NCBI GenBank assembly: GCA_040752835.1
Contig: JBFMGG010000007.1
Location: 372,001 to 436,000, forward strand
Direction of reading: 5' to 3'
DNA from: Campylobacterota bacterium
GTDB taxonomy: Bacteria; Campylobacterota; Campylobacteria; Campylobacterales; Sulfurimonadaceae
Length of the DNA stretch: 64,000 bases
Part shown: positions 13,672 through 49,222 of the stretch, one piece after another
Layout: every line of letters starts with the position of its first letter
How positions within the stretch are numbered: position 1 is the first letter of the stretch
Made by a program: the position numbers and the translations under genes
The notes under the pieces: model-generated
The model's input: the letters and a program-made list of their open reading frames with translations, nothing else
The model's database searches: none
What the model was told of the DNA's origin: nothing

Positions 13672-14283
13672 ATGCGTATGCCGCGCGTCGATAACAACCG
13701 GTTTTACGCCGCATCGCTCAAAAAATACGGCGTATCGGCACGGGGGGTGCAGTGGCGCAGCGAAGAGAATCAGCTGATCCGTTTCGAACAGATCGCCGCG
13801 CTGATCCTCCCCGCACCGGGGGCTGTACGCATTGCCGATGCGGGATGCGGATTCGGCGATTTCTACCGCTTTCTCTTCCCCGTACTGGGGGAAAAGCTCC
13901 ATTACATCGGGATCGATTCGCACGAAGAGATGGTTCGGATCGCCCGCAAACGCGCCCTGGGCGAACTGCTCTGGCGCGACGTGTTGAGAGACCCTCTCCC
14001 CCCGGCCGATTATTACGTCTGCAGCGGCGCGCTCAACATTCTCACCCCCTATGAAGCCCAGCGGTTCATCCGCCGTTGTTACGAATCCTCCGGAAAAGGG
14101 TTCGTTTTCAATTTTTTGGAAGGGGCCGAACCCTCGAACACCTACAACTACATGAGTGCTGCGAACATCGAGCGGATGGCGCGCGAACTGAACGCGCGGT
14201 GCGTTTTGCGGCGCGGATATCTCCAGGGCGACTGCACCGCCGCTTTTTACAAACCGCACGATGCCACGCGATTGCAACAGTGA
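13672..14283 (+). CDS. Class I SAM-dependent methyltransferase
   Basis: This 203-residue Rossmann methyltransferase has the SAM-binding motif I IADAGCGFGDFYRFL, the acidic end of motif II (IGIDSHEEM) and a post-motif segment (ADYYVCSGALNIL). No substrate can be assigned. AAGGAAG precedes the ATG; upstream, TTCTTTCC can pair with the ribosome site, so translation may be dampened. A TACAAT -10 lies near 13596 after the ubiB stop. The following HD-GYP gene starts 35 bases downstream. Confidence 0.8.
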   Translation: MRMPRVDNNRFYAASLKKYGVSARGVQWRSEENQLIRFEQIAALILPAPGAVRIADAGCGFGDFYRFLFPVLGEKLHYIGIDSHEEMVRIARKRALGELLWRDVLRDPLPPADYYVCSGALNILTPYEAQRFIRRCYESSGKGFVFNFLEGAEPSNTYNYMSAANIERMARELNARCVLRRGYLQGDCTAAFYKPHDATRLQQ

Positions 14284-14318
14284 TACGTGATAATCTCGCA
14301 AACGACAAAGGGGGAGAG

Positions 14319-15542
14319 ATGAGCTACGTTTTAAACCTTCGGGAGGTGACGTATGCCCTTTCCGAAGCGCTCGATTACGTCGGAATCGACGATACGATGC
14401 ACGGCAAGCGGGTAGCGTTCATGGCGGCCGAAATAGGCAAACGCCTCGGATGGCCGACGGAGAGGATCGACGATCTGATCGTGGCGGGAATGATGCACGA
14501 CTGCGGCGTCTCATCGACCGATGTACACGACCACCTGGTCAGCGAACTCGATTGGGACAATTCGCAGGCGCATTGCATACGCGGCAGTGCGCTGCTCGAA
14601 AAAGTCGGTATCTACCGCAGCTACGCCTCTGCGATTTTTTACCATCACACCCACTGGGACGAACTGCCGCCGACGCTCGATCGGCTCACCATGGAAAACG
14701 CCAACCTGATCTACCTCGTCGACCGGGTCGATGCACTGCGCGTCCAGATCGGCGACGCCGATGCGCATCAGCGCGCACGGATCGGCGAGATAATCCGCAA
14801 ATATGCCGGGAAAATGTTTTCGCCCGAGCTCGTCGACGCCTACACGTTCTGCGCGCAAGCCGATTCGTTCTGGTTCTACCTGGAGAGCGAAGCGCTCGGC
14901 GGGTATCTGCACGAATGGCTCGAAAACGGGACGCCCGAAGAGGTGCCTTTCGAGTCGATCAAAGCGATCGCGATGCTGTTTGCCGACGTCGTCGATGCCA
15001 AAAGCACGTTTACGACCGAACACTCCTACGGCGTCGCGTCGCTGGGACGCTACATCGCCGAAGGACTCGCTCTGGGCCGGGAAGTCGAGGAGAAGGTCGA
15101 GCTGGCCGCGCTGCTGCACGATCTGGGAAAACTGAGGGTGGCCGACGCGATTTTAAACAAGCAAGGTCCCCTGAACGAGGACGAGCGGCTTAAAATGAAC
15201 CGTCACGGTTTCGATTCGCACATGATCCTGCGAAAAATCAAGGGGATGAACGACATCGCCCGGATCGCCTCACTCCATCACGAGTATCTCAACGCAAGCG
15301 GATATCCCTATCATCTTTCCGCAGATCAAATTCCGCTCGAAGCGCGGGTGCTGGCTGTTGCCGATATTTTTCAGGCGCTGATCCAGGACCGTCCCTATCG
15401 CAGCGGGCTCGATGCCCGCTCGGCACTTGAAATTTTGCGGCAGATGGTGCTGGAGGGGAGACTCGATTCCCGAATCGTGGCGTTCGTCGAAGCCGATCTG
15501 CAACGGTGCCATGAACACGCGAAAAAAAAGATCGAACTCTGA
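14319..15542 (+). CDS. Tandem HD / HD-GYP phosphodiesterase
   Basis: This 407-residue cytosolic protein has two HD-type halves. The first (residues about 1-200) has MMHDCGVSS. The second is an HD-GYP domain with LLHDLGKLRV, MNRHGFDSH, the GYP motif as HHEYLNASGYP (usually HHExxDGxGYP) and ADIFQALIQDRPYR. HD-GYP domains hydrolyse c-di-GMP; the Asn-Ala in place of Asp-Gly in the motif leaves activity likely but unproven. The start at 14319 follows a strong GGGGGAGAG; longer upstream frames overlap the methyltransferase gene. It converges with the minus-strand signalling cluster, only 9 bases away. Confidence 0.85.
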   Translation: MSYVLNLREVTYALSEALDYVGIDDTMHGKRVAFMAAEIGKRLGWPTERIDDLIVAGMMHDCGVSSTDVHDHLVSELDWDNSQAHCIRGSALLEKVGIYRSYASAIFYHHTHWDELPPTLDRLTMENANLIYLVDRVDALRVQIGDADAHQRARIGEIIRKYAGKMFSPELVDAYTFCAQADSFWFYLESEALGGYLHEWLENGTPEEVPFESIKAIAMLFADVVDAKSTFTTEHSYGVASLGRYIAEGLALGREVEEKVELAALLHDLGKLRVADAILNKQGPLNEDERLKMNRHGFDSHMILRKIKGMNDIARIASLHHEYLNASGYPYHLSADQIPLEARVLAVADIFQALIQDRPYRSGLDARSALEILRQMVLEGRLDSRIVAFVEADLQRCHEHAKKKIEL

Positions 15543-15551
15543 AAAAGGGCG

Positions 15552-16673
15552 CTAGTCGATAAAGCGGAGGCTGCAAAGGTCGTTGCGCGGCAGGGTGGCG
15601 ATGAACGAAGAGCCTTTGGGCCCGACCGCCAGTTCGAGCGATCCCTTGAATTCTTGTTCGATGATGAGGCGTGCGACGTGCAGGCCGATACCGAAACCCT
15701 CTTCTTTGTTTTTCGTCGAAAAGTCGGGTTGGAAGATTTGTTCGCGGAGCGGCTCGGGGACCCCTCCCGCTTCGTCCCGGACGCTCAGATAGATGTGGCT
15801 TTGGTCTGAACGCGTCTCGAGGCTGATGAAGCGTCTTCCGGTGGTTCTGGAACCGGTGTAGGCGTCTTTGGCGTTGGCGACGAGGTTGATCAGGACCTCT
15901 TCGAGATCGGTCTGGTATCCGTAAATCTGGGCGTCTTGCGCCGGATGGGGGATTAGCAGCTCGATATCGTGCTGTTTGAGCTGTTCGCTCCACAGCGAGG
16001 CGATTCGCTCGAACAGTTCGCGGATCGAAAAAAGTTCTTTGGCGCGATGGACTTTCCCCAGGCTAAGGACGCTTTTGAGGATGTCCGACATCCGTTGCGC
16101 CTGATCCGAAACGATCTGCGCGCTTTTGGCGACGGATACGGATTTGATATTCTCTTCGATCCCCGTCTGGATCATCAGGTTGATCGCTTCCATGCTGATC
16201 AGATTGATCGGCTGGCGCCACTGGTGGGCGACCATCCCCAGCGAATCGACCAGACCCGAACGGCGTGAGCGCATTTTGAGGGCGTTCGTGTAGCGTTTAT
16301 TCCCCCAGAGCGAGAGGAACAGTTTTTCGAGTTCGCCCATCACCGCATCGTATCGGAGGGTGAAGTGATCGGGGGTGAAACGGACCGTGTGGGTCAGCAC
16401 GGCAAGCGGCCAGAACGCCTCTTCGTCCTCGTCGGGGGTGATGAGGCAGACGCTAAAGGCTCCATGACGCGCTTTGAGGGAACGGACGACGTTGAGGAGC
16501 GCGGCGTCGATACGCGGCGTTTCGACGATGAGCCCCACCGCATCCTCGGTGCTCATCGAGAGTTCCTCGAGCGTCAGGTCGACGATGCGAAACGCCGCGA
16601 GCATCGACGGCGTGGGGACGAACAGCGCGGAGTGGGTCTGAAGGCGCAGAAGGGCGGGTTTGCTGTCATTCAT
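15552..16673 (-). CDS. Soluble histidine kinase, pseudo-receiver input
   Basis: This 373-residue cytosolic histidine kinase is the last gene of a three-gene operon. The first 120 residues resemble a receiver fold without the phosphoacceptor (AVGLIVETPRIDAALLNVVR). The H-box reads LGMVAHQWRQPIN, the QWRQP type common in Campylobacterota, followed by an N-box (NLVANAKDAY) and G-boxes (RDEAGGVPE, GFGIGLHVARL). No membrane helix is present, so the signal must be cytosolic or come from a partner. It overlaps the preceding REC-GGDEF-EAL gene by 8 bases, implying equal dosage of the two. Confidence 0.85.
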   Translation of the reverse strand: MNDSKPALLRLQTHSALFVPTPSMLAAFRIVDLTLEELSMSTEDAVGLIVETPRIDAALLNVVRSLKARHGAFSVCLITPDEDEEAFWPLAVLTHTVRFTPDHFTLRYDAVMGELEKLFLSLWGNKRYTNALKMRSRRSGLVDSLGMVAHQWRQPINLISMEAINLMIQTGIEENIKSVSVAKSAQIVSDQAQRMSDILKSVLSLGKVHRAKELFSIRELFERIASLWSEQLKQHDIELLIPHPAQDAQIYGYQTDLEEVLINLVANAKDAYTGSRTTGRRFISLETRSDQSHIYLSVRDEAGGVPEPLREQIFQPDFSTKNKEEGFGIGLHVARLIIEQEFKGSLELAVGPKGSSFIATLPRNDLCSLRFID

Positions 16674-18324
16674 GGGGCACCTCGAACGGATCGCCTACGG
16701 CGTATCCCTGGATGTAGTCGATCCGGGCCGCATTAAGCAAGGCGATGTGGGCCGGATCGGAAATGTTTTTGGCGATCGCTTTGGACCCTACCAGATGGAC
16801 GATTTCGACCATGCTGGCGATAATGTGTCCGATCCCCTCGTCGTGTGCGAGTTTTTCGGTCACTTTAGGGTGGAAGTTCATGTAGTCGGGTTTGAGCGAG
16901 AGGAGCAGGGGAAGGTCGAATTCACCCGCGCCGAAATGGTTGAGGATGATTTTATACCCTTCCCGCTGTAACTCGGAGACGGTGGAAGCGGGCGTTTCGT
17001 CGTAGAGGGTTTCGATCCCGTTGATGAGCTGAAACGCGATGTTGGCGGGAGCGATCCCGAAACGTTCGGTCCAAAAGCGGATGTAGGCGACGAGCCCTTC
17101 GTCGCTCAGGTCGTTCGACGAGAGGTTGATGACGACGAGCGAGCCCTGATCCAGCGATGGGTAAAGTTGCAGGGTGTTGCGGATCATGGAACGGGTGATC
17201 ATCACCATCTGCCCCATGCTGATCGCGAGGTTCAAAAACGTATCCGGGCCGTAAAGCTGACCGTCTTTTCGGATGCGGATAAGGCTTTGGTACATTGCCG
17301 GTTGGAGGGTGCGGGCATCGACGATGGGCTGGAAAAGGGGGACGATGTCCTCGTGGACGAGGGCATTGAAAATCATCCGGAGAATGTCGCGGCTTGACGT
17401 GAGGGAGGGACCGTCGATCTCCCGAAGCGGGCGGTAGACGCTCACTGCGCCGCCGGAACGGTCGTTGGTCGTTTCCAGCGCCCGTTTGGAGTGCAGCAGG
17501 ACGTTGTCGCTGCCCGATGCGATCCCGACCGAGAGGGTCGAGTTGAGGATGATTCCCCGTTCGGACGTGTGGAAATAGCGGACGACCGAGGTCATGTTTC
17601 CGGCGAGTTCGGCCGCGTAATCGGTATGTTCTCCCTCGAAGAGGAGGCAGAATTCATCCGTCGCAGTGCGGAAAAACTCCCCTTTGGGCTCGAAGACCAG
17701 ACTTTCGAGCAGGCGGGAGAGTTCGCTCAGGTACTCGTTGGCGTACTCTTCCCCGACGAACGAAATGATGTTGTTAAAATGGTTCACCCGAAGGCGCATC
17801 AAGGTTACGGCAGAGGCGTCGTGATCGCCAATCCGTTCGGTGAGGGCGGGAAAAAGGTTCCAGCCCGTGATCGGGTCGAACGCCGATTCGGCGGGTGAAT
17901 CGGCCACGTTTTCCAGGGAAAAAACCTTTTCGAGGGTGCTGAAAAGTTTGGGCATTGCCAGCGGTTTGAGAAGGTATCCCTGAACGTTCTGGGCGATCGC
18001 TTCGGCCATGAAATTCGCTTCGTCGTGGGCCGAGAGGATGACGACAGGCTGGGAGGGGGAGAGGGCACGGATTTCGCGGATGAGACGAAGGCCGCCGAGT
18101 TTGGGCAGCTCGAGGTCGGTGACGACGAGGGTGAAAGGGTCGGACGCTTTAAAACGGTCGTAAAAGAGGGCGAGTGCTTCTTCTCCGTCCGAGGCGATGA
18201 CGTATTCGCGGAAAAAGACCCGCAGTATGCGGCTCAGCGATTCGGCAATTTCGGGGTCGTCGTCGATGATGAGAACCGAACGCGATTCCGCACCTTCTTT
18301 GAGCCGCTGGATCGAATTAGCCAA
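16666..18324 (-). CDS. REC-GGDEF-EAL protein, both output domains degenerate
   Basis: This is a 552-residue response regulator. The receiver has an intact acceptor (LVVTDLELPKLGG) and Lys (YLLKPLA). The GGDEF domain has lost its active site (RTATDEFCLLF in place of GGDEF). The EAL domain reads YQSLIRI where EALLR is expected, and FGAGEFDLPLL where DDFGSGYSN is expected, so neither synthesis nor hydrolysis of c-di-GMP is likely. It probably binds c-di-GMP, GTP or a protein partner and passes on phosphorylation state. It overlaps its neighbours by 8 bases on both sides: the OmpR-type regulator upstream and the histidine kinase downstream. Confidence 0.87.
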   Translation of the reverse strand: MANSIQRLKEGAESRSVLIIDDDPEIAESLSRILRVFFREYVIASDGEEALALFYDRFKASDPFTLVVTDLELPKLGGLRLIREIRALSPSQPVVILSAHDEANFMAEAIAQNVQGYLLKPLAMPKLFSTLEKVFSLENVADSPAESAFDPITGWNLFPALTERIGDHDASAVTLMRLRVNHFNNIISFVGEEYANEYLSELSRLLESLVFEPKGEFFRTATDEFCLLFEGEHTDYAAELAGNMTSVVRYFHTSERGIILNSTLSVGIASGSDNVLLHSKRALETTNDRSGGAVSVYRPLREIDGPSLTSSRDILRMIFNALVHEDIVPLFQPIVDARTLQPAMYQSLIRIRKDGQLYGPDTFLNLAISMGQMVMITRSMIRNTLQLYPSLDQGSLVVINLSSNDLSDEGLVAYIRFWTERFGIAPANIAFQLINGIETLYDETPASTVSELQREGYKIILNHFGAGEFDLPLLLSLKPDYMNFHPKVTEKLAHDEGIGHIIASMVEIVHLVGSKAIAKNISDPAHIALLNAARIDYIQGYAVGDPFEVPHE

Positions 18325-18997
18325 GTTCGCCCTTTTTCATAATGTACCCGAATCCCCTCATGTTTTCGATCAGCTCTTCTTTGAGCTTCTGGCGGACGCG
18401 GTTGACGAGGGACCGGATGGTGGAAGCTTCGGCATCCTCGCCGTCCCAGATGAACGAGCGGATGCTCTCATCGGTCATCACCTGCCCGAGATTGCTGACG
18501 AAAAGGACGATGAGGGCGTGCTCGCGCTTGGTAAATTTCTGCACCGTATCGTCGTAATAAAGGAGATTGGTCTCTTTGTTGAATGTATAGCGGTCGCTGA
18601 GACGGATGATGGGATCGGAAGCGGGTTCGGCGTTTTGCTGGCTCTGCGCACTCAGACGCTGGATACGGATGTCGAGCTCTTTGAGGTTGAACGGCTTTTT
18701 GAGGTAGTCGCTGCATCCAAGGTCGAAGGCGTCGGAGATGTATTCGATGTCGTGGTAGGCGCTGATGACGATTTTCGGGACGTCGGGATAGCGCAGCGCG
18801 ATCGCTTTGAGACATTCGAGCCCGCCGACGAGGGGGGTGTTGATGTCAAGAATGTAAAAATCGTGCATTTTGGATTCGATTACGTCGAGTACTTCCTGAC
18901 CGTTGTCGTAATGGTCGACCAGATGCCCCCGCGAGAGGAGATAGGTCCGGATCGAGCGCGCCAGCATGAATTCGTCTTCCAGCAACAGGATTTTCAT
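18317..18997 (-). CDS. OmpR/PhoB-family response regulator, candidate cluster regulator
   Basis: This 226-residue DNA-binding response regulator has a receiver with acidic LLLEDEF, phosphoacceptor FYILDINTPLVGG and Lys in YLKKPF. The winged-helix output has the typical recognition region STIRSLVNRVRQKLK and the closing NMRGFGYIMKKG. It is the only DNA-binding regulator seen in the 15.5-49.2 kb minus-strand cluster. Its own promoter (19027-19060) carries the 11-base-period direct repeat shared by eight other operons there, which is the type of site this family binds. Autoregulation and control of the cluster are inferred. It heads an operon with the degenerate GGDEF-EAL protein and a kinase. 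Confidence 0.9.
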   Translation of the reverse strand: MKILLLEDEFMLARSIRTYLLSRGHLVDHYDNGQEVLDVIESKMHDFYILDINTPLVGGLECLKAIALRYPDVPKIVISAYHDIEYISDAFDLGCSDYLKKPFNLKELDIRIQRLSAQSQQNAEPASDPIIRLSDRYTFNKETNLLYYDDTVQKFTKREHALIVLFVSNLGQVMTDESIRSFIWDGEDAEASTIRSLVNRVRQKLKEELIENMRGFGYIMKKGELG

Positions 18998-18998
18998 A

Positions 18999-20180
18999 TT
19001 ACAGCCCCTTGTGTTGTTCGGAGGGTATTGTAGGCGAACTGCGTTGCATTAATGTGGCATTTTTGAAGAGGTAGCGAAACGAAGTCCCCCTTACGGGGGT
19101 GGAAGAGATCTCGATTTCGACGTTTTCCTCTCGGCAGATCTGCGCCACGATACTCAGCCCCAGCCCGTAACCGCCCTTGGTTTCCGACTCGCGGTGAAAG
19201 CGTTCGAAAATCTTTTTTTTGTCGTGGATGAGGGGACCGTGGTTGCGGATTTCGAAGTAGATGTCGTCGTTGCGCATTCCGACGGTGATTGCGATTTCGC
19301 CGGGTCGGTAGGAGTATTTGATCGCATTGGAGAGGGTGTTGTCCACCAGCCGGGCGAGTTTCAGCTCCGAAAACATGATGGAGGGGAGGTTGGGCTGTCC
19401 CGTACGCATCGAAAGGGTCAGTTCGTTTACTTCGGCGATGCAGGTGAAATACTGTTTGCGTTCGGCAATGTAGGAGACGAGATCGATCACGACTTTCTGG
19501 TCGGGGATACGGTCGCGTTTCATGAGATAGGTCATGTCTTCGTAACTGTTCTGGATGATCCTCGCCCCCGCTTCGATCGCGCTGAGCGATTCGTTTTCGA
19601 TCCCCTCCATCCGAAGGAGGTCGATGTTGGTGATGATGACGGCCAGCGGCGTGTGGATCTCGTGGATCGCATTTTTGAGAAACCGGTCCTGATCGTTGAG
19701 GAGGCGCAGGGCGTATTCTCGCGATTCTTCGAGGAGTTTGCGGCTCTCGGCGAGGGCGTTGTCGTAATCGATCTGCTCGAGCATGTCGATGAGTGCGGTG
19801 AAAAGTTCGTCCTGGTTGATCGGTTTGAGAACGAAACGGTCGATCCCGCAGCGGATCGATTCGATGAACATCGTACTCTCTTCGGCCCCGGAGATGGCGA
19901 TGACCCGCTGCAGCGGATCGATTTTTTTCAGTCTTCCGGTGAGCTCAAGGCCGCTGCTGCGTCCGAGGTTGACGTCGGTGATCACCAGCAGGGGGGAAGG
20001 GGATTCGCGGAACGCGTGGTAGAGATCGAGCGCCTCCTCGGGATCGGAGGCGGTTTGGATGGAGTCGAAAAAATGGGACAGAAGCCGCTGAAGGCTCTCC
20101 TGCATCAGAGGATCGTCTTCGACGATCAACAGCGATTTGCCGGAGGAGAGTTTTTTCAGACGTGCAGCCTCGGAGACCAT
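18999..20180 (-). CDS. REC-histidine kinase hybrid, soluble
   Basis: This 393-residue cytosolic hybrid has an N-terminal receiver (IVEDDPLMQ; acceptor VVITDVNLGRSSG; Lys in FVLKPIN), a short coiled coil, then a HisKA domain (AIHEIHTPLAVI) and an ATPase domain (VDNTLSNAIKYS, GGYGLGLSIV). A receiver placed before the kinase usually lets another kinase tune its activity. It is the last gene of the operon that starts with the GAF-kinase at 23127. Its final codons contain the promoter for the next operon, so the two transcription units overlap. Confidence 0.88.
   Translation of the reverse strand: MVSEAARLKKLSSGKSLLIVEDDPLMQESLQRLLSHFFDSIQTASDPEEALDLYHAFRESPSPLLVITDVNLGRSSGLELTGRLKKIDPLQRVIAISGAEESTMFIESIRCGIDRFVLKPINQDELFTALIDMLEQIDYDNALAESRKLLEESREYALRLLNDQDRFLKNAIHEIHTPLAVIITNIDLLRMEGIENESLSAIEAGARIIQNSYEDMTYLMKRDRIPDQKVVIDLVSYIAERKQYFTCIAEVNELTLSMRTGQPNLPSIMFSELKLARLVDNTLSNAIKYSYRPGEIAITVGMRNDDIYFEIRNHGPLIHDKKKIFERFHRESETKGGYGLGLSIVAQICREENVEIEISSTPVRGTSFRYLFKNATLMQRSSPTIPSEQHKGL
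19027..19060 (-). promoter_or_regulatory. Cluster box + -10, before the OmpR-type regulator
   Basis: Minus strand: ATGCCAC-N4-ATGCAAC-N10-TACAAT. The -10 ends 29 bases before the regulator ATG. The whole element lies inside the coding 3' end of the upstream kinase gene. It is one of nine copies with identical spacing (others at 23155, 28800, 35758, 38313, 41703, 45034, 45710, 49189). Confidence 0.75.
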
Positions 20181-20198: not shown

Positions 20199-21968
20199 TT
20201 AAACAGCTGCGGATATTATAGCTTCTTGTACGGGAAGTTTCGGTTCGACCGGACGGATTTTTTTCATGCAGGGGTCAAACGGCATCGGTGCGCCGAAGAG
20301 ATACCCTTGCGATTCGCATACGCCGAGGCTGCAGATCCGCTCGTGCAGCGCTTCGGCAGAGACGTATTCCGCGATCGTCCTGATCCCCAGGCGCTCGGCA
20401 AACGTGGTAAGAAGTTCGACGATGCTCTGGGAGACGTAGTCGGTGGCGATCGTTTCGATCAGCGAGCCGTCGAATTTGATGTAGTCGACGTTGAGTTTGG
20501 CGAGATGTTCGAAATTCGAATAACCCGACCCGAAGTCGTCGAGAGCCACTTTGCAACCGAGTTCTTTCAGTTTGGCGAAAAAATTCTGAATTTCGGCATA
20601 CGATTCGACCCCTTCGCTTTCGAGCAGTTCGAAGACGAGACGGTGCGGTTCGGGAAAAGAAGCGATCTGCTGGAAGAGGAATTCGCGGGTGGGGTGATGG
20701 GAGATGTCCTCGATCGAAAGGTTGATACTGACGCTGCATTCGGAATCTCTGAAATCGTTCAGGACCGACGCGATGACGAGTTTGGTGATCGTACGGTACA
20801 TCTTCGTCTCTTTGGCGATCGGTAGAAACTGTACCGGAGAAAGAAACTGCCCATCGGGCGTCATGAGGCGCAGGAGCGCTTCGTATTTGACGATGCGCAT
20901 CGTGGTATTGTCAATGATGGGCTGGTAAAACGGGACAAATCGGTTTTCAACGATTGCCCGTTTGATCGTATCGATGCACTTGAGCTTGTAGCTGTTGCCG
21001 TGGTTGTGGTGTTCCGCCGAACGATAGATGACGGTTCTCCCCTCTTTTTCGGCCTGGCGCAGTGCGAAATCGGCATGTGAAAGGCTCAGCTCGTCTCCGG
21101 GATGGACAATAGCGGCGTACATTTCCAGATACATTTTTTCCCCGGCCACGACGATTTCGGTCGCTTCGAAATGCTGGACGATAAGGTGAACGAGCGGTTC
21201 AAGACTCTGTACCCCCGCCGGCGAGAGGAGGGCGAAATGGGTTCCGCTGGTACGGTAAAGGCCGTGGTGCTCGACGTTCATCTCGTCGTTGACCAGACGC
21301 CGGAGGATGCTGGCGGTTTGTTGTAGAACGGCGTTTCCCGCATCATATCCGTACGTGTCGTTGAGATGTTTAAAGTCCCCGATTTTAAACAGGACGAGGG
21401 TATGGTTTGAATAGGTAAAAATATCCTGTTCCAGTTTTCCGAGCGAATACAGTCCGCTGATCCGGTCGAAGGTATAGGTTTGGATCGCTTCGCGGGTTTT
21501 GGTTTCGACGAGCTCTTCGAGATGTTGGCGGTATTGAACGTTCTCCCGCTCCATTTTGATCTTGCCGACCACTTTGTGGAGCGTAGCCATGGTCTGTTCC
21601 CGTTCCATCGGCTTGAACAGGTAGCCGTCGACGCCCAGCTGGATCGATCGGTGGAGGTAATTGACGTCTTTGTGGGCCGAGACGAGGAGGGTTGATAGGT
21701 CCGGATAGCGTTCCTTGATTTTTTCGATCATCGTAAGGCCGTCGAATTTGGGCATTTCGATATCGGTGATGACCAGATCGAAGGGAGTTTCAAGGGCCGC
21801 TTCAAGCCCTTTTTCTCCGTTGGATTCATGGCGGATATTTTCGAAAAAACGGCTCAGGAACGTGAGGTATTCGCGGCCGATAAGCGGGTCGTCCTCGACG
21901 TAGAGGACGTGCAGTCCTCTGGCGTTGTCGCGGATGGCGGCGATGAGTTTGGCGGGATCAGTCGACAA
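20199..21968 (-). CDS. REC-GGDEF-EAL protein with probably active EAL
   Basis: This 589-residue response regulator has a receiver (YVEDDPLIG; acceptor LVITDIEMPKFDG; YLFKPM), a degenerate GGDEF (YRTSGTHFALL, no catalytic motif) and an EAL domain with its key motifs intact (KYEALLRLM, INLSIEDI, FELLESEG, DDFGSGYSN, IAEYV). It should hydrolyse c-di-GMP in a phosphorylation-dependent way. The start chosen is TTG at 21968, 11 bases inside the upstream kinase gene, because AGGAGGT lies 5 bases before it; the longer frame has no ribosome site. The overlap implies coupled translation with the GAF-kinase. Confidence 0.88.
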   Translation of the reverse strand: MSTDPAKLIAAIRDNARGLHVLYVEDDPLIGREYLTFLSRFFENIRHESNGEKGLEAALETPFDLVITDIEMPKFDGLTMIEKIKERYPDLSTLLVSAHKDVNYLHRSIQLGVDGYLFKPMEREQTMATLHKVVGKIKMERENVQYRQHLEELVETKTREAIQTYTFDRISGLYSLGKLEQDIFTYSNHTLVLFKIGDFKHLNDTYGYDAGNAVLQQTASILRRLVNDEMNVEHHGLYRTSGTHFALLSPAGVQSLEPLVHLIVQHFEATEIVVAGEKMYLEMYAAIVHPGDELSLSHADFALRQAEKEGRTVIYRSAEHHNHGNSYKLKCIDTIKRAIVENRFVPFYQPIIDNTTMRIVKYEALLRLMTPDGQFLSPVQFLPIAKETKMYRTITKLVIASVLNDFRDSECSVSINLSIEDISHHPTREFLFQQIASFPEPHRLVFELLESEGVESYAEIQNFFAKLKELGCKVALDDFGSGYSNFEHLAKLNVDYIKFDGSLIETIATDYVSQSIVELLTTFAERLGIRTIAEYVSAEALHERICSLGVCESQGYLFGAPMPFDPCMKKIRPVEPKLPVQEAIISAAV

Positions 21969-23127
21969 GGAGCACCTCCTGATCGGAATGGTCCGGGATC
22001 GAAAGGGCAAAGACGCTTTCGCCTGAGCCGCTGCTGACCCGGATCGTCCCGCCGAGGTGTTTTTCGACGATGATCGCCGACATGTACAGCCCTAGCCCCG
22101 TGCCGTGTTTTTCGTCCTTGGTGCTGAAATAGGGCTCGAAAATCCGGGTGAGGATCTCCTGCGCAATCCCCCCGGCGTTGTCGCGGACGAGGAAGAGCGC
22201 TTTTTGGGATTGCGGCCGGAGTTCCAGCGTGATGCGGGGATGCGGGATGCTGTTCTCGGCGAAGGCGTCTTTGGCGTTGTTGAGGATGTTCAAAAAGACC
22301 TGCAGCAGCTCGTTTTTGTAGGTCGTAAACGCCATCGAGCGATCGCCTTCAAAATGCAACCGGATGCGCTGGCTTTCAAAACTTTTTCCCAGGATGCTGC
22401 TGATTTCGTCGCACAGTTCGCCGAAGTTCATCCGCTGCGGGAGTTTGTTCGGCCGGAAAAAGTTTCGGAAATCGTCGATGGTCTGCGAGAGAAACTGGAT
22501 CTGTTTGTCGATCAGCTCGAGGTCTTTGAGAAGCTGTTCCTCGTTCATTTCCCCCAGCTGGATACTGAGGATCGAGTTGCTGCTTACCAGCCCGATGATC
22601 GTGATCGGCTGGCGCCACTGGTGGGCGATCATGCCGATCATTTCCCCCATGATTGCCATGCGCGACTGGCTGATCATCAGTTTTTCGTTCGCTTCGTTAC
22701 GGTGGATCTGATGCTCGAATGCGCCGCTGAGTTCTTGGAGCCGTTTTTCATTTCGGCACGCGTCGATGGCGTTGGCCAGTTTCGTCGTGAACGTGACGAA
22801 CATTTCCCCGTAGGTTTGTGCCGCACGGGCGTCGGAGAAGAGAAACAAAAAATGCTCGATCCCCACCGGCACGTCCAAGACGCATCCCTCAACGCTCTTG
22901 TGGAGAGCGAAACCGTCGATGTCGGTGCTGAGCTTTTGGGGTAGAGGCACCCTCTGGCCTCTTGCGGCGAGAGGGGCCGAGGCGGGCGGAGCGGGAAGAA
23001 ACATGCCCCCCGCCGCACCGGTTTGGGAGACGAAGGTTTCGACAACTTCGGCGAGCATGTCGTCGAGGTTGAGCGAATTGCCGATGGCGCTTAGGCAGGC
23101 GTAGGCGACCTCAATGGACGGTTTCAT
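21958..23127 (-). CDS. Soluble GAF-type histidine kinase
   Basis: This 389-residue cytosolic kinase has an N-terminal GAF-like domain (about 1-150: VAYACLSAIGNSLNLDDML onward), a coiled coil, a HisKA domain with the H-box IGMIAHQWRQPITII, an N-box (ILNNAKDAF), and G-boxes (RDNAGGI, GTGLGLYMSAIIVEKH). The start at 23127 was chosen for the AAGGGAG ribosome site; a longer frame upstream has none and would run through the promoter. It is the first gene of an operon GAF-kinase, REC-GGDEF-EAL, REC-kinase, headed by the cluster box at 23155-23188. Confidence 0.87.
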   Translation of the reverse strand: MKPSIEVAYACLSAIGNSLNLDDMLAEVVETFVSQTGAAGGMFLPAPPASAPLAARGQRVPLPQKLSTDIDGFALHKSVEGCVLDVPVGIEHFLFLFSDARAAQTYGEMFVTFTTKLANAIDACRNEKRLQELSGAFEHQIHRNEANEKLMISQSRMAIMGEMIGMIAHQWRQPITIIGLVSSNSILSIQLGEMNEEQLLKDLELIDKQIQFLSQTIDDFRNFFRPNKLPQRMNFGELCDEISSILGKSFESQRIRLHFEGDRSMAFTTYKNELLQVFLNILNNAKDAFAENSIPHPRITLELRPQSQKALFLVRDNAGGIAQEILTRIFEPYFSTKDEKHGTGLGLYMSAIIVEKHLGGTIRVSSGSGESVFALSIPDHSDQEVLLVD

Positions 23128-23154: not shown

Positions 23155-23188
23155 ACTATAACGCCGTTGTGTGGCAATCACGTTGCAA
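23155..23188 (-). promoter_or_regulatory. Cluster box + -10, before the GAF-kinase operon
   Basis: Minus strand: TTGCAAC-N4-TTGCCAC-N10-TATAGT, with the -10 27 bases before the ATG at 23127. Confidence 0.78.
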
Positions 23189-23196
23189 TCGCTTCC

Positions 23197-25278
23197 TCAG
23201 CGCAGCAGCCCGTACTGGCGCAGGAGCTTTTCGTATTCGTCGTCTTTGCCGAACTCTTTGAGGTAATAGGCGGCAATGGTGCGGGCCATCGCGAGGGAGT
23301 TTTCGGCGAGCAGGTGCGAGAGGCGGTTGAACGTCGCCTGTCGGACGCACTCTTTGATCTTGGCCTGGAAAAAGGCGATGGAAGCGTAGGGAGCCATGAT
23401 CTGCTGCACCAGTTTGATCTCCCCTTTACCGACGGCGGCCATCGCGTCGCTCAAAACGGCATCGAAAGCGCGGTCGTATTCGGCAAATTCCCGCATCGAT
23501 TCGAGGTCGGGATGGGCGGAAACGAGCTCATAAGCCGCCTGGATGTCGTCGGCGAAGATATGGGCGAGAAGGGTGCGGCGCAGCTGGATCGCTTTGCCGA
23601 TTTCGGCAAGTTCATGGCGGTAAGGGAGGAAGACGGCGAGTTGTTTGATCCCCGCGATCGCGTCGTCGTAGCGGTTTTCGTCCACCAGGGAGCGGATCTT
23701 TTTGATCGACGCTTCGGCCAGGGTACATACTTTTTTGTAGAGCTCTTCGTGTTGCAAAAACGGGTTTTGTTCGGTGAGGAGAAAATACTCTTTGAACTTT
23801 TTCTCTTTGATCAATGCGTCGGACTGGAGGAAGACGGCATGATTTTTGAACAATGCGTGGATCATCTCTTTTTTCCCCGGCACGGAGGTGAAGGGTTTGA
23901 GCAGCTCCTGCGCTTTTGGGGCGTTGCGCAGCGGGTCGGACGAGAGGAGTTTTTTGGCCTCGGCGAAATGTTTGGTGAAATACAGTTCGAGTTTGCGCGC
24001 GCTGTCGGTTTTCGCCAGGTAGGGGGCTTTCTCGAGCATTCCGAACGCTTCGAGAAAGTTTTTGTTCTGCACCGTGAGCGCAAATTTTTCAAAATCTTTT
24101 TGTTTTTGCAGGAGAAATTCGAACTCTTTTTTGTATTCGCCATCACCCAGGAACGGCTCGGCAAACTCAAGCGCGGAGGCGGCGTTTCCGGTCGAGAAGC
24201 GGTTGATGATCTCTTTGAGAGTCTCCTCCCATGCTTCCTGGAACATCTCCGACATCGGGTGGATCGCCAGAAAGAGGTTTTTGTCGAGGCAGATTTTGGC
24301 CGTACGGTAGTTTTTGACCGACACCGCCTGCGCAAAATCGTCGATAAAAGCGTGCATGTCGATGACGTAGAGCCAGCCGTTTTCAAAGCCGATGTGGAGG
24401 GTCGAGCCTTCGATGTGGAGCGTGCCGATCCCTTTCTGGTCGAGTTTGAACGTCGAAAAGAGGGTGTTGTCGGAGAGTTTGACGATGTGCAGGTGGCCGC
24501 TGCGGGTCCCTACGATCGCGTAACGGCCGCTTTGGTCGAGGACGCACGACGTCGGCCACGAGGGGAAAAGCACTTTTTTGCGCATCTCTTCGGTTTTGAA
24601 ATCGTAGAGGTAGGAATACCCCTCTCTTCCGACCGCGTAGAGGGCTTTGGAATCGTTGAAGAAAAAAGCGTCCTGGACTACGTCTTCGAGGTACGTATGG
24701 AGACGCTCTTTCTGGAACCTGAGGTTCAGAACGCTCAGCGATTTGTCGTAAGCCGCGCAGGCAAGATGGCTTCCCCCCTCGTCGACCGCTAGGGAGGAGA
24801 TATAATCGGGGCGGGGTTTGAGCGACATGACCTTGCGCCCGTTCTCGGAGCTGTAGATGTAGACCTTTCCGTCGGTACCGCCGGTGATGAGGTATTGCCC
24901 CTCACGGCCGCAGAATCGCATGATCTCGGCCCGCTGGTCGTGCCCTTTGACGAAAAGGGGTTCAGGGGGCTCGGGAGGTTCTCCTTTGGTCTCTTCGCCC
25001 GAGGGGACGGGATCGTAGACGGGGCGGCACAGGGCACAGGCCCCGTTGTCCTTGGTACTGTAGGCGAGCACTCCCGTGGGGCTGAAAGAAGCCCCTTTCT
25101 GATAGGTGTGGAGCGGTTCGTCGGGTTCGCATACGGGGTCGTGACGCTTCATTTCCCAGCGCTCTTTGTCGACGGTATAGAAATTGCCCAGCGTATTGGC
25201 GAAATAGACGGCGTTGTCGTCCGCATGGACCGCTATGACGCTTCCTTGCACCTGGTAGGATCGGATGATTTTGATCAT
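23197..25278 (-). CDS. WD40-like propeller plus helical-repeat protein, function unknown
   Basis: This is a 693-residue cytosolic protein without signal peptide or membrane helix. Residues about 1-310 consist of repeated beta blades of WD40 character (YLITGGTDGKVYIYSSENGR, YAIVGTRSGHLHIVKLSDNT, HIGFENGWLYVIDMHAF). Residues about 320-693 are alpha-helical repeats. A cysteine pair (GACALCRPV) lies in the propeller. A propeller followed by an alpha-solenoid resembles eukaryotic coatomer and intraflagellar-transport scaffolds; that is only a likeness of layout. It is the last gene of a kinase/receiver operon (18 bases after the REC-PAS gene), so a scaffold for phosphorelay or receptor proteins is a reasonable guess. 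Confidence 0.75.
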   Translation of the reverse strand: MIKIIRSYQVQGSVIAVHADDNAVYFANTLGNFYTVDKERWEMKRHDPVCEPDEPLHTYQKGASFSPTGVLAYSTKDNGACALCRPVYDPVPSGEETKGEPPEPPEPLFVKGHDQRAEIMRFCGREGQYLITGGTDGKVYIYSSENGRKVMSLKPRPDYISSLAVDEGGSHLACAAYDKSLSVLNLRFQKERLHTYLEDVVQDAFFFNDSKALYAVGREGYSYLYDFKTEEMRKKVLFPSWPTSCVLDQSGRYAIVGTRSGHLHIVKLSDNTLFSTFKLDQKGIGTLHIEGSTLHIGFENGWLYVIDMHAFIDDFAQAVSVKNYRTAKICLDKNLFLAIHPMSEMFQEAWEETLKEIINRFSTGNAASALEFAEPFLGDGEYKKEFEFLLQKQKDFEKFALTVQNKNFLEAFGMLEKAPYLAKTDSARKLELYFTKHFAEAKKLLSSDPLRNAPKAQELLKPFTSVPGKKEMIHALFKNHAVFLQSDALIKEKKFKEYFLLTEQNPFLQHEELYKKVCTLAEASIKKIRSLVDENRYDDAIAGIKQLAVFLPYRHELAEIGKAIQLRRTLLAHIFADDIQAAYELVSAHPDLESMREFAEYDRAFDAVLSDAMAAVGKGEIKLVQQIMAPYASIAFFQAKIKECVRQATFNRLSHLLAENSLAMARTIAAYYLKEFGKDDEYEKLLRQYGLLR

Positions 25279-28799: not shown

Positions 28800-28833
28800 A
28801 TTATGGCGCTTTTGTGTGGCAAGTATGTTGCAA
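28800..28833 (-). promoter_or_regulatory. Cluster box + -10, before the PAS-kinase/WD40 operon
   Basis: Minus strand: TTGCAAC-N4-TTGCCAC-N10-CATAAT, with the -10 33 bases before the ATG at 28766. Confidence 0.78.
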
Positions 28834-35757: not shown

Positions 35758-35791
35758 AGTATTCCGTATTAGTGTTGCAATATTGTGGCAA
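35758..35791 (-). promoter_or_regulatory. Cluster box + -10, before the che operon
   Basis: Minus strand: TTGCCAC-N4-TTGCAAC-N10-AATACT, with the -10 28 bases before the ATG at 35729. Confidence 0.77.
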
Positions 35792-38312: not shown

Positions 38313-38346
38313 ACTATAAAGAAACAGTGTTGCGTTTTTGTTGCAA
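38313..38346 (-). promoter_or_regulatory. Cluster box + -10, before the CZB receptor gene
   Basis: Minus strand: TTGCAAC-N4-ACGCAAC-N10-TATAGT, with the -10 69 bases before the ATG at 38243. The second repeat has two changes (TT to AC). Confidence 0.7.
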
Positions 38347-41220: not shown

Positions 41221-41625
41221 TTAGTGAAGTGTTTTGTACAGTTCGACGGCCGAAGCGATTTCGTCTTCGGCGGGTTTTTTCCGGCACGACATGTAATAGC
41301 GTTTACCCTCGCGCATGACGGGAAAAACCGTTGCGTAGACCCAGTAAAAACCGTTCCCGCCCTTGACCGAATTTTTGACGAACCCGGTCCAGATTTTGCC
41401 CGATCTGACCGTATCCCAGAGGTCTTTAAACGCGGCACGGGGCATGTCGGGATGGCGGACGAGGTTGCGGGGTTTTCCTCTTAACTCATCGATTGAATAT
41501 CCGGCTACTTCGCAAAAATCGTTGTTGGCGAACGTGATGATACCTCTTTCATCGGTTTCGGATACGAGAAACGCTTCGGATGTCAGAACGCGTTCGGAGC
41601 CGTTGTAGGTAAAAATCTGTGACAT
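41221..41625 (-). CDS. Single-PAS protein of the aerotaxis (Aer/CetB) type
   Basis: This 134-residue protein consists of one PAS domain: [36 protein letters not shown], and [12 protein letters not shown]. The RHPDMP and W-x-G segments are typical of the FAD-binding PAS of Aer and CetB. No output domain is fused; the soluble chemoreceptor gene follows directly, so the PAS protein likely senses redox or oxygen state and passes it on by contact. The start MSQIFTY was chosen as the first Met before the domain; an ATG 12 bases upstream is also possible. The cluster box lies 77 bases upstream. Confidence 0.88.
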
Positions 41626-41702
41626 AAGGACAATCATCTCCTGAGTGGGTTGGTCGATTCTTCTGTTGCGGTTTGTCAAAAAAGAATCTTTTGGTACGAC
41701 GA

Positions 41703-41736
41703 ATTATCCGACATTAGTGTTGCAAGTTTGTGGCAA
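41703..41736 (-). promoter_or_regulatory. Cluster box + -10, before the PAS/soluble receptor operon
   Basis: Minus strand: TTGCCAC-N4-TTGCAAC-N10-GATAAT, with the -10 77 bases before the ATG at 41625. Confidence 0.78.
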
Positions 41737-45033: not shown

Positions 45034-45067
45034 ATCGTAACGCTTTAATGTTGCAAATGTGTGGCAA
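45034..45067 (-). promoter_or_regulatory. Cluster box + -10, before the 644-residue receptor gene
   Basis: Minus strand: TTGCCAC-N4-TTGCAAC-N10-TACGAT, with the -10 47 bases before the ATG at 44986. It starts just 12 bases after the stop of the receptor gene's upstream neighbour (POTRA). Confidence 0.75.
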
Positions 45068-45077
45068 AATCGTCCGA

Positions 45078-45683
45078 TCAGTTTTTCCCTTCGCGGGCGT
45101 AGCGGGCTTTGAAAGATGGGTATTTTTTGATCGCGACGGTGACGATGCCGTTTTCGTCGGCCTGCGCGATTTCGGCGTAGGCGAGTTCGTAGCGGCGGGA
45201 ACGGTAATAATCTTGGACCGTTTTAACCAGTTTCGCGAGTGCGGCGTCGTTGTGCTCGGTCCCCAGCAGCGGTTCGATCTCTTTCATCAGACGGTAGGTG
45301 GAAATCTTTTCGTTTCCGGTGAAAAAGACGCGGTTGATCAGCCCTTTGTGCAACGGCCGCCGCTCCATTTCACCGATGGAACGCCGGTTGAAATCGGTAT
45401 ATTTTTTGATACTGACGGTCACGGTGCGGTTTTTTTCGTCGATGGAGGCGACCGAAGCGTAGGCGAGGCTGAAATTGTTTTTACGGTAAAACGACTCGAC
45501 GTCTCCTGCGATCCGCTCAGCGGTGGAAGCGTCAAGCGTTTTGCCCAGATAGGGCTGAACCAGCGCATTGAGTTTCTTGGTCGGGATTTTTTCGTTACCT
45601 TCGAAAACGATTTTGTCGATGGGGGTCGAAGCCCAAAGGGAGAGGGATAAGAGTGCGAGTGAAAGCAAGACGTTAACGCGCAT
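45078..45683 (-). CDS. Exported protein with two POTRA-like repeats
   Basis: This 201-residue secreted protein has a signal peptide (MRVNVLLSLALLSLSLWA) and two repeated units of POTRA type: IDKIVFEGNEKIPTKKLNAL ... FYRKNNFSLAYASV, and INRVFFTGNEKISTYRLMKE ... YYRSRRYELAYAEI. POTRA domains occur in BamA, TpsB and FtsQ proteins and bind unfolded or partner proteins, but here no barrel or membrane domain follows, so it would be a free periplasmic protein. The start at 45683 has AAGGAG. It has its own cluster box, tying it to chemotaxis genes for unknown reasons. Confidence 0.8.
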   Translation of the reverse strand: MRVNVLLSLALLSLSLWASTPIDKIVFEGNEKIPTKKLNALVQPYLGKTLDASTAERIAGDVESFYRKNNFSLAYASVASIDEKNRTVTVSIKKYTDFNRRSIGEMERRPLHKGLINRVFFTGNEKISTYRLMKEIEPLLGTEHNDAALAKLVKTVQDYYRSRRYELAYAEIAQADENGIVTVAIKKYPSFKARYAREGKN

Positions 45684-45709: not shown

Positions 45710-45743
45710 ATTGTATGACGTTAGTGTGGCAAGTGTGTTGCAA
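45710..45743 (-). promoter_or_regulatory. Cluster box + -10, before the POTRA gene
   Basis: Minus strand: TTGCAAC-N4-TTGCCAC-N10-TACAAT, with the -10 26 bases before the ATG at 45683. Confidence 0.78.
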
Positions 45744-49188: not shown

Positions 49189-49222
49189 ATTGTGCCACTA
49201 TAGTGTCGCAACTGTGTTGCAA
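49189..49222 (-). promoter_or_regulatory. Cluster box + -10, before the receiver/receptor operon
   Basis: Minus strand: TTGCAAC-N4-TTGCGAC-N10-CACAAT, with the -10 45 bases before the ATG at 49143. Confidence 0.72.

Follow-up and report, generated by a model that had tools for sequence, protein, structure and literature searches.

Which protein reads a DNA box repeated through a cluster of sensing genes, and does a copy of that box lying inside a kinase gene act as a promoter? We addressed these questions in a 64,000-nucleotide stretch (the window) of a Campylobacterota bacterium of the Sulfurimonadaceae, an environmental organism of sulfur-oxidizing type (GenBank assembly GCA_040752835.1, contig JBFMGG010000007.1, positions 372,001 to 436,000 of the forward strand), in which a response regulator gene directly follows a kinase gene whose last codons hold one such box. 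From sequence comparisons and a predicted structure, we arrive at a reading to which we give a probability of about 0.8: the regulator encoded at 18317-18997 would read boxes of the form WTGCMAC-N4-WTGCMAC and activate its own promoter, nested in the kinase gene. The operon that holds these elements, all on the minus strand, is laid out as follows.

23155..23188, minus strand: operon-head box and -10 (TTGCAACGTGATTGCCAC, TATAGT); the next start is at 23127, and similar upstream boxes occur in relatives
21958..23127, minus strand: histidine kinase, first gene of the operon (domain search; start from the box survey)
20199..22010, minus strand: receiver-GGDEF-EAL protein (domain search)
18999..20180, minus strand: receiver-histidine kinase with the box in its last codons (Pfam Response_reg, HisKA and HATPase_c)
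19043..19060, minus strand: internal direct-repeat box ATGCCAC-N4-ATGCAAC, inside the kinase gene, with no mismatches to WTGCMACN4WTGCMAC
19027..19032, minus strand: -10 hexamer TACAAT, 10 bp after the internal box
18317..18997, minus strand: OmpR/PhoB-type response regulator of 226 amino acids (Pfam Response_reg and Trans_reg_C; predicted fold)
16666..18324, minus strand: receiver-GGDEF-EAL protein overlapping the end of the regulator gene (open reading frame and domain search)
15552..16673, minus strand: histidine kinase-type ATPase protein, last gene of the operon (domain search)

Read along the minus strand, the internal box (19060..19043) is ATGCCACATTAATGCAAC; 10 bases, the hexamer TACAAT (19032-19027) and a further 29 bases lead from it to the regulator's ATG at 18997. 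Box and hexamer lie wholly within the open reading frame (ORF) 18999-20180, whose stop is one base ahead of that ATG. The original prediction had described the site as ATGCCAC-N4-ATGCAAC-N10-TACAAT, 29 bases 5' of the regulator's ATG and within the kinase gene, and rereading of the sequence found this description exact. The order of box, kinase, receiver-GGDEF-EAL protein, receiver-kinase, internal box, regulator, receiver-GGDEF-EAL protein and kinase-type protein, read from domains in the window and matched by ORF sizes and boxes in many relatives, therefore places the regulator behind two copies of its own box.

Judged by its sequence, the regulator is an OmpR/PhoB-type response regulator. 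A receiver followed by a Trans_reg_C winged helix matches Pfam above the cut-off in both cases (E 1.1e-20 and 3.2e-12), and E7, D8, D51 and K100, as expected of an OmpR/PhoB-type phosphoacceptor site, are invariant among 18 orthologues; we take these residues to supply the phosphoacceptor aspartate, the active-site acid and the lysine. The predicted structure (mean predicted local distance difference test score 85.2, predicted template modeling score 0.56) places the recognition helix at residues 191-204, of which T193-R200 is invariant in the same orthologues. This predicted fold matches the KdpE-DNA, PhoP-DNA and PmrA-DNA complexes, with low whole-chain template modeling scores that probably stem from a differing orientation of the two domains in the model. 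According to the original prediction, the cluster encodes no other DNA-binding response regulator. At the Pfam level this holds over about 14-50 kb of the window, but a second OmpR-type response regulator (Response_reg plus Trans_reg_C) is encoded elsewhere in it, at 1904-2683 on the plus strand, outside the sensing cluster; its helix, NEMQYLRTYINSLRKK, is unlike the box-associated helix pattern given below.

The internal site belongs to a family of direct repeats, WTGCMAC-N4-WTGCMAC, with an 11-bp period and a -10-like hexamer exactly 10 bp downstream. A search of the window with WTGCMACNNNNWTGCAAC, allowing up to 2 mismatches, returned 12 matches against 1.87 expected, a number reached in none of 100 shuffles. 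Of the 10 exact copies of the repeat in the 2.13-Mb genome, eight fall within the window, and a reversed control has no match at all. These counts, together with shuffles of synonymous codons described below, rule out a chance origin of the boxes. Promoter-type boxes in the window number ten rather than the nine first reported, all upstream of cluster genes, and one more lies on the same contig about 134 kb past the window's end. This distal exact copy (C7:569839) has a good -10 and heads a protein starting MAGQELTFGEHEF (L010 / L105); a similar start, VAGQELSFGDHEF, stands behind a box in the relative G085, and the regulon would therefore extend past the cluster. The remaining exact copy, C6:16426, has no -10 and is probably there by chance. 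Four copies of TTGCAACCTATTTGCAAC in G070 (contigs C4 and C14) and a single copy in G098 resemble a repeated element more than they do promoters.

Promoter geometry bears on the sign of regulation. Among 61 distinct exact boxes from the loci of regulator-bearing genomes, TATAAT-like hexamers stand at offset 10 in 40 and at any other offset up to 24 in at most five; the looser form nAnnnT fits 57 of the 61 at offset 10. The bases ACTAA right after the second half-site are conserved though absent from the search pattern (A 55, C 45, T 41, A 50 and A 36 of 57). In all ten window promoters the -35 hexamer matches at three or fewer of its six positions. With a fixed -10 distance and no good -35, the window promoters are, by these features, of the activator type in which a box replaces the -35. 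Negative autoregulation, with the regulator repressing through its own box, would turn the sign around: a site over the -35 region could block polymerase, and PhoB is presented in passages of PMC10294691 as a dual regulator according to site position. We regard repression as distinctly unlikely, since the fixed 10-bp gap to the -10 across the 61 boxes suits an activator that touches sigma and would not be needed by a repressor, and since all ten window promoters lack a good -35 hexamer.

Boxes and regulator also go together across genomes. Two samples were used, 101 genomes of the family and 398 of the order, with statistics that ignore kinship. The orthologue is sharply separable in the family (at least 62% identity, next matches at most 45%) and occurs in 19 genomes, every one of which has between 1 and 23 exact boxes (147 altogether); of the 82 genomes without it, 27 have any exact box (45 in total) and only two have four or more. 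Co-occurrence in relatives, proposed beforehand as a check, was borne out in the order sample, where promoter-type boxes are present in 13 of 13 genomes with the orthologue (79 sites) and in 41 of 385 without it (49 sites; Fisher P 1.3e-12, ignoring relatedness), while the reversed control pattern has no match in any of the 398. Named Sulfurimonas contigs carry the orthologue as well. Eight of the 101 genomes encode an orthologue of the CheA from the window's che operon (at least 73% identity), and each of these eight also has the regulator. The che operon does not account for the boxes, as the other 11 of the 19 regulator-bearing genomes have them without that CheA; on this distribution, the boxes track the regulator.

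The internal copy of the box is itself conserved. Of the 20 orthologous loci in the 19 genomes, 14 have a site with at most 2 mismatches, box and -10 taken together, at position -58 to -64 from the regulator start; four additional contigs named as Sulfuricurvum (L071, L072, L079 and L083) have it too. A search of named contigs gave 15 loci; with L085 (21% identity, another phylum) dropped and L082 outside the evaluated set, 11 of 13 have the internal box, nine of the 13 apparently overlapping our G-numbered genomes. Across 12 genomes, synonymous codon identity in the kinase gene, scored in 347 windows, is highest in the one that opens a single codon ahead of the box and second highest in the one that coincides with the box (G094, a near duplicate, G076b, with a broken frame, and G088, G052, G070, G046, G089 and G099, with no in-gene internal box, were left out). 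When the synonymous codons of the kinase tail are shuffled, an equally good site arises in 0.0004 of trials for the present genome, as it does for the near duplicate, G094; for the other relatives that keep the box the fraction is 0.006 to 0.14.

It had been argued that a site under both coding and regulatory constraint is likely to function. Function is backed by conservation, but the argument itself proved weak. Beyond FRYIF/FRYLF the kinase tail is variable in length and sequence, or missing, in relatives, and the kinase of G099 ends at FRYIF just ahead of a weaker, intergenic box (2 mismatches in the box, 2 in the -10). Because of this variation, and because the G099 kinase stops before the box, the tail is by comparison dispensable and the coding constraint on it thus weak; an unqualified inference from "inside a gene" to "functional" is ruled out, and intragenic PhoB sites of E. 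coli are described in part of PMC10294691 as mostly unconserved and inert. On the sequence evidence, it is conservation, not coding position, that makes the case for the internal site. The variable tail, and the persistence of the G099 box outside the coding frame, instead make the tail look like a translated promoter rather than a part of the protein that happens to hold one. Conversely, the tail might be conserved as protein and the DNA box be its by-product, as the NAT-LQ(H/Q) peptide is also conserved in box-bearing genomes. The varying tail length, the end of the G099 kinase just before its box and the unusually fixed synonymous positions (P 0.0004 in the present genome) make this by-product account highly improbable.

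Under the mechanism that we propose, one or more of the kinases encoded alongside would phosphorylate the regulator, and two copies of it would bind the two half-sites head to tail, where a -35 would be. The bound regulator would then bring RNA polymerase to the hexamer 10 bp downstream (the -10), an activating sign suggested by the position of the box. It would turn on about ten transcription units, covering kinases, cyclic di-GMP enzymes, chemoreceptors and the che operon, and its own gene twice over, from the operon-head promoter and from the nested promoter in the kinase's last codons. The nested promoter would raise the regulator and the downstream genes relative to the three preceding ones. 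Positive feedback with extra output of the operon's downstream half is the likely consequence. The other box-bearing units in the window are these.

14261..14294, plus strand: box and -10 before the gene for an HD-GYP-type (HD_5) protein, 14319-15542 (box survey, domain search)
28800..28833, minus strand: box and -10 before the kinase operon 28766-23197 (kinases, a receiver protein and a beta-propeller protein)
35758..35791, minus strand: box and -10 before 35729-34872 and the che operon (CheY, CheA, CheW, CheR, CheD and CheB)
38313..38346, minus strand: box (1 mismatch) and -10 before the chemoreceptor 38243-35859
41703..41736, minus strand: box and -10 upstream of the chemoreceptor 41438-39813
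45034..45067, minus strand: box and -10 before the chemoreceptor 45025-43052
45710..45743, minus strand: box and -10 before the POTRA-domain protein 45683-45078
49189..49222, minus strand: box (1 mismatch) and -10 before the receiver protein 49143-48031

Several of these units have features of their own. The che genes run in the order CheY-A-W-R-D-B; F-class chemosensory operons are described for Sulfurospirillum, Sulfuricurvum and Sulfurimonas in passages of PMC9321776 that do not take up how these operons are transcriptionally controlled. Behind the box at 41736, a short ORF (41221-41679, minus strand) overlaps the start region of the chemoreceptor, giving two candidate first genes. The protein encoded at 23197-25278 (minus strand), in the kinase operon, has WD40-like beta-propeller matches, and the 201-residue protein at 45078-45683 (minus strand) has two POTRA-type matches, which are unexpected in a sensing regulon.

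A number of observations weigh against a regulator that reads these boxes and activates its nested promoter. The internal site is missing from 5 of the 20 loci (G088, G052, where it is degenerate, G070, G046 and G089), among them that of the second closest relative, G088 (89% identity), and the window's own internal box has no ACTAA extension. The synonymous-shuffle values are modest, 0.11-0.14, in several relatives (G079, G085 and G091), and G089 has only a divergent box at the regulator locus. For five other OmpR-type regulators of the present genome, the relative G078, which has no boxes, encodes no close counterpart; one of the five was profiled and excluded. Near-identical boxes without the orthologue occur in G049 (six), G055 (three) and G066 (eight), as well as, at one to three per genome, in 15 f20-family members of the order sample.

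The missing internal sites and the absent ACTAA would suit a circuit in which the regulator reads the boxes and is expressed from the one at the operon head (23188), with the intragenic copy contributing little or nothing. A precedent is offered by the PhoB sites within genes mentioned above, most of them inert, and in four of the five loci that lost the internal box (G088, G052, G070 and G046) a box on the same strand still stands ahead of the operon, from which an unbroken gene run leads into the regulator. Against an inert copy stand the -10 at exact spacing, the position kept in 14 of 20 loci, the top synonymous constraint in the gene and the G099 box that persists outside the coding frame, and we judge it unlikely. 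On either account the regulator gene would be served by its own box: counting the weak G099 site, at least one same-strand box leads into it in 19 of 20 loci, G089 being the exception. To that extent the autoregulation put forward in the original prediction was upheld, with binding and the positive sign suggested by position.

A further possibility is that another regulator of the same genome reads the boxes and that the neighboring response regulator is merely one of its targets. The genome has 17 Trans_reg_C matches (16 were parsed, L161 being left out), and in other genera similar boxes are probably recognized by different OmpR-type regulators. Among the 15 parsed regulators other than the present one, however, 10 have counterparts of at least 62% identity in boxless G078, and one more, encoded at C7:559759 near the distal box, was found in 2 of the 101 genomes and is thereby ruled out as a general reader. 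The phylogenetic profile of the neighboring regulator fits the boxes, and among the genome's regulators it alone has the helix pattern [TR]xR[SA]L[VI]xRxR, a pattern chosen after looking at the sequences. We therefore accord another reader only a small probability, and favor the regulator at 18317-18997.

Boxes without the orthologue, which the original prediction had counted as evidence against itself, do occur, in G049, G055, G066 and many f20 genomes, and other OmpR-type regulators are encoded near six such loci. Absence of the orthologue is less sure in G066 because that genome is 76% complete. Most of the boxes inspected in these three genomes have a good -10, and boxes of the form TTGCAACGYTTTTGCAAC or similar head several lipoprotein-like genes there (L136-L141, L041, L042, L049 and L065). 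At each of the six loci examined (G049, G055, three in G066, and G259), a different OmpR-type regulator adjoins the box or lies two genes from it; the box-adjacent regulators counted are L136-L141, eight of the 14 sequences so labeled not being near a box (L107-L110, L114, L122 twice and L142). These regulators of other genera are 27-34% identical to the present one in the DNA-binding domain and are not orthologues.

The helix pattern [TR]xR[SA]L[VI]xRxR is common to all six box-adjacent regulators, which represent about four lineages, and to the present one. It is found in 19 of 20 orthologous sequences (the G064 orthologue fails), in 1 of the 16 parsed regulators of the present genome, the regulator at issue, and in none of 17 in boxless G078; among 30 inspected of the 36 regulators in G149 it fits one, 6 kb from a box. 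The boxes of G049, G055 and G066 probably mark separate regulons whose DNA word is almost identical. We read this as several regulators using one word, which is no argument against the present regulator using it too. A broader suggestion, which we hold tentatively and at a little short of even odds, is that the TTGCAAC repeat and this helix form a portable recognition pair, used by distant OmpR-type regulators across Campylobacterales to run unrelated, often self-controlled regulons, and that in the Sulfuricurvum/Sulfurimonas branch the promoter was overprinted, the kinase's C-terminal tail being the next gene's translated promoter.

The proposed arrangement has well-known parallels. According to passages of PMC4832192, OmpR/PhoB-type regulators with known sites all bind direct repeats, and PhoP of Mycobacterium tuberculosis does so as a tandem dimer on 7-bp repeats with a strict 4-bp spacer; the repeat and spacer lengths are shared here, whereas the PhoP motif is TCACAGC and its recognition helix and regulon differ. 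The pho box is likewise given in part of PMC4415409 as two 7-nt direct repeats with 4 nt between, and excerpts of PMC3348028 describe PhoB sites as overlapping the -35 region, where a PhoB dimer contacts sigma. In these respects the present regulator would work like PhoB of Escherichia coli. It does not qualify as a PhoB orthologue, given its half-site, TTGCMAC rather than CTGTCAT, and its targets, which are kinases, chemoreceptors and cyclic di-GMP enzymes rather than phosphate genes; its own promoter, moreover, is nested in a kinase gene. Within the same phylum, HP1043/HsrA of Helicobacter pylori is an OmpR-type regulator that, as passages of PMC5253667 describe it, recognizes TTTAAG direct repeats with 11 bp between centers and binds its own promoter; unlike the present protein, it uses a 5-bp spacer and is an orphan, essential regulator. 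A further parallel, within the order, is offered by the box-adjacent regulators of G049, G055, G066 and G259, with TTGCAAC-N4-TTGCAAC or ATGCAAC variants nearby, a -10 at 10 bp and the shared helix pattern; they differ in being non-orthologous and in that several of their boxes head lipoprotein-like genes. Among open-licence full texts we found none on the present regulator or its box, and nothing close on a promoter inside a kinase gene. The type of circuit is thus familiar, and the present regulator with its box is an undescribed, well-supported example of it.

For a large accessory sensing cluster, the analysis names a regulator, the DNA word that goes with it and about ten targets; one protein and one box would be enough to test the circuit. 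The internal site, conserved and with a correctly placed -10, offers a clean comparative case of a promoter kept in coding sequence, in contrast to the mostly inert intragenic PhoB sites. It also exemplifies a protein tail that seems to owe its existence to a promoter. Finally, the helix pattern that distant regulators share near similar boxes makes a small test case for predicting specificity in the OmpR family.

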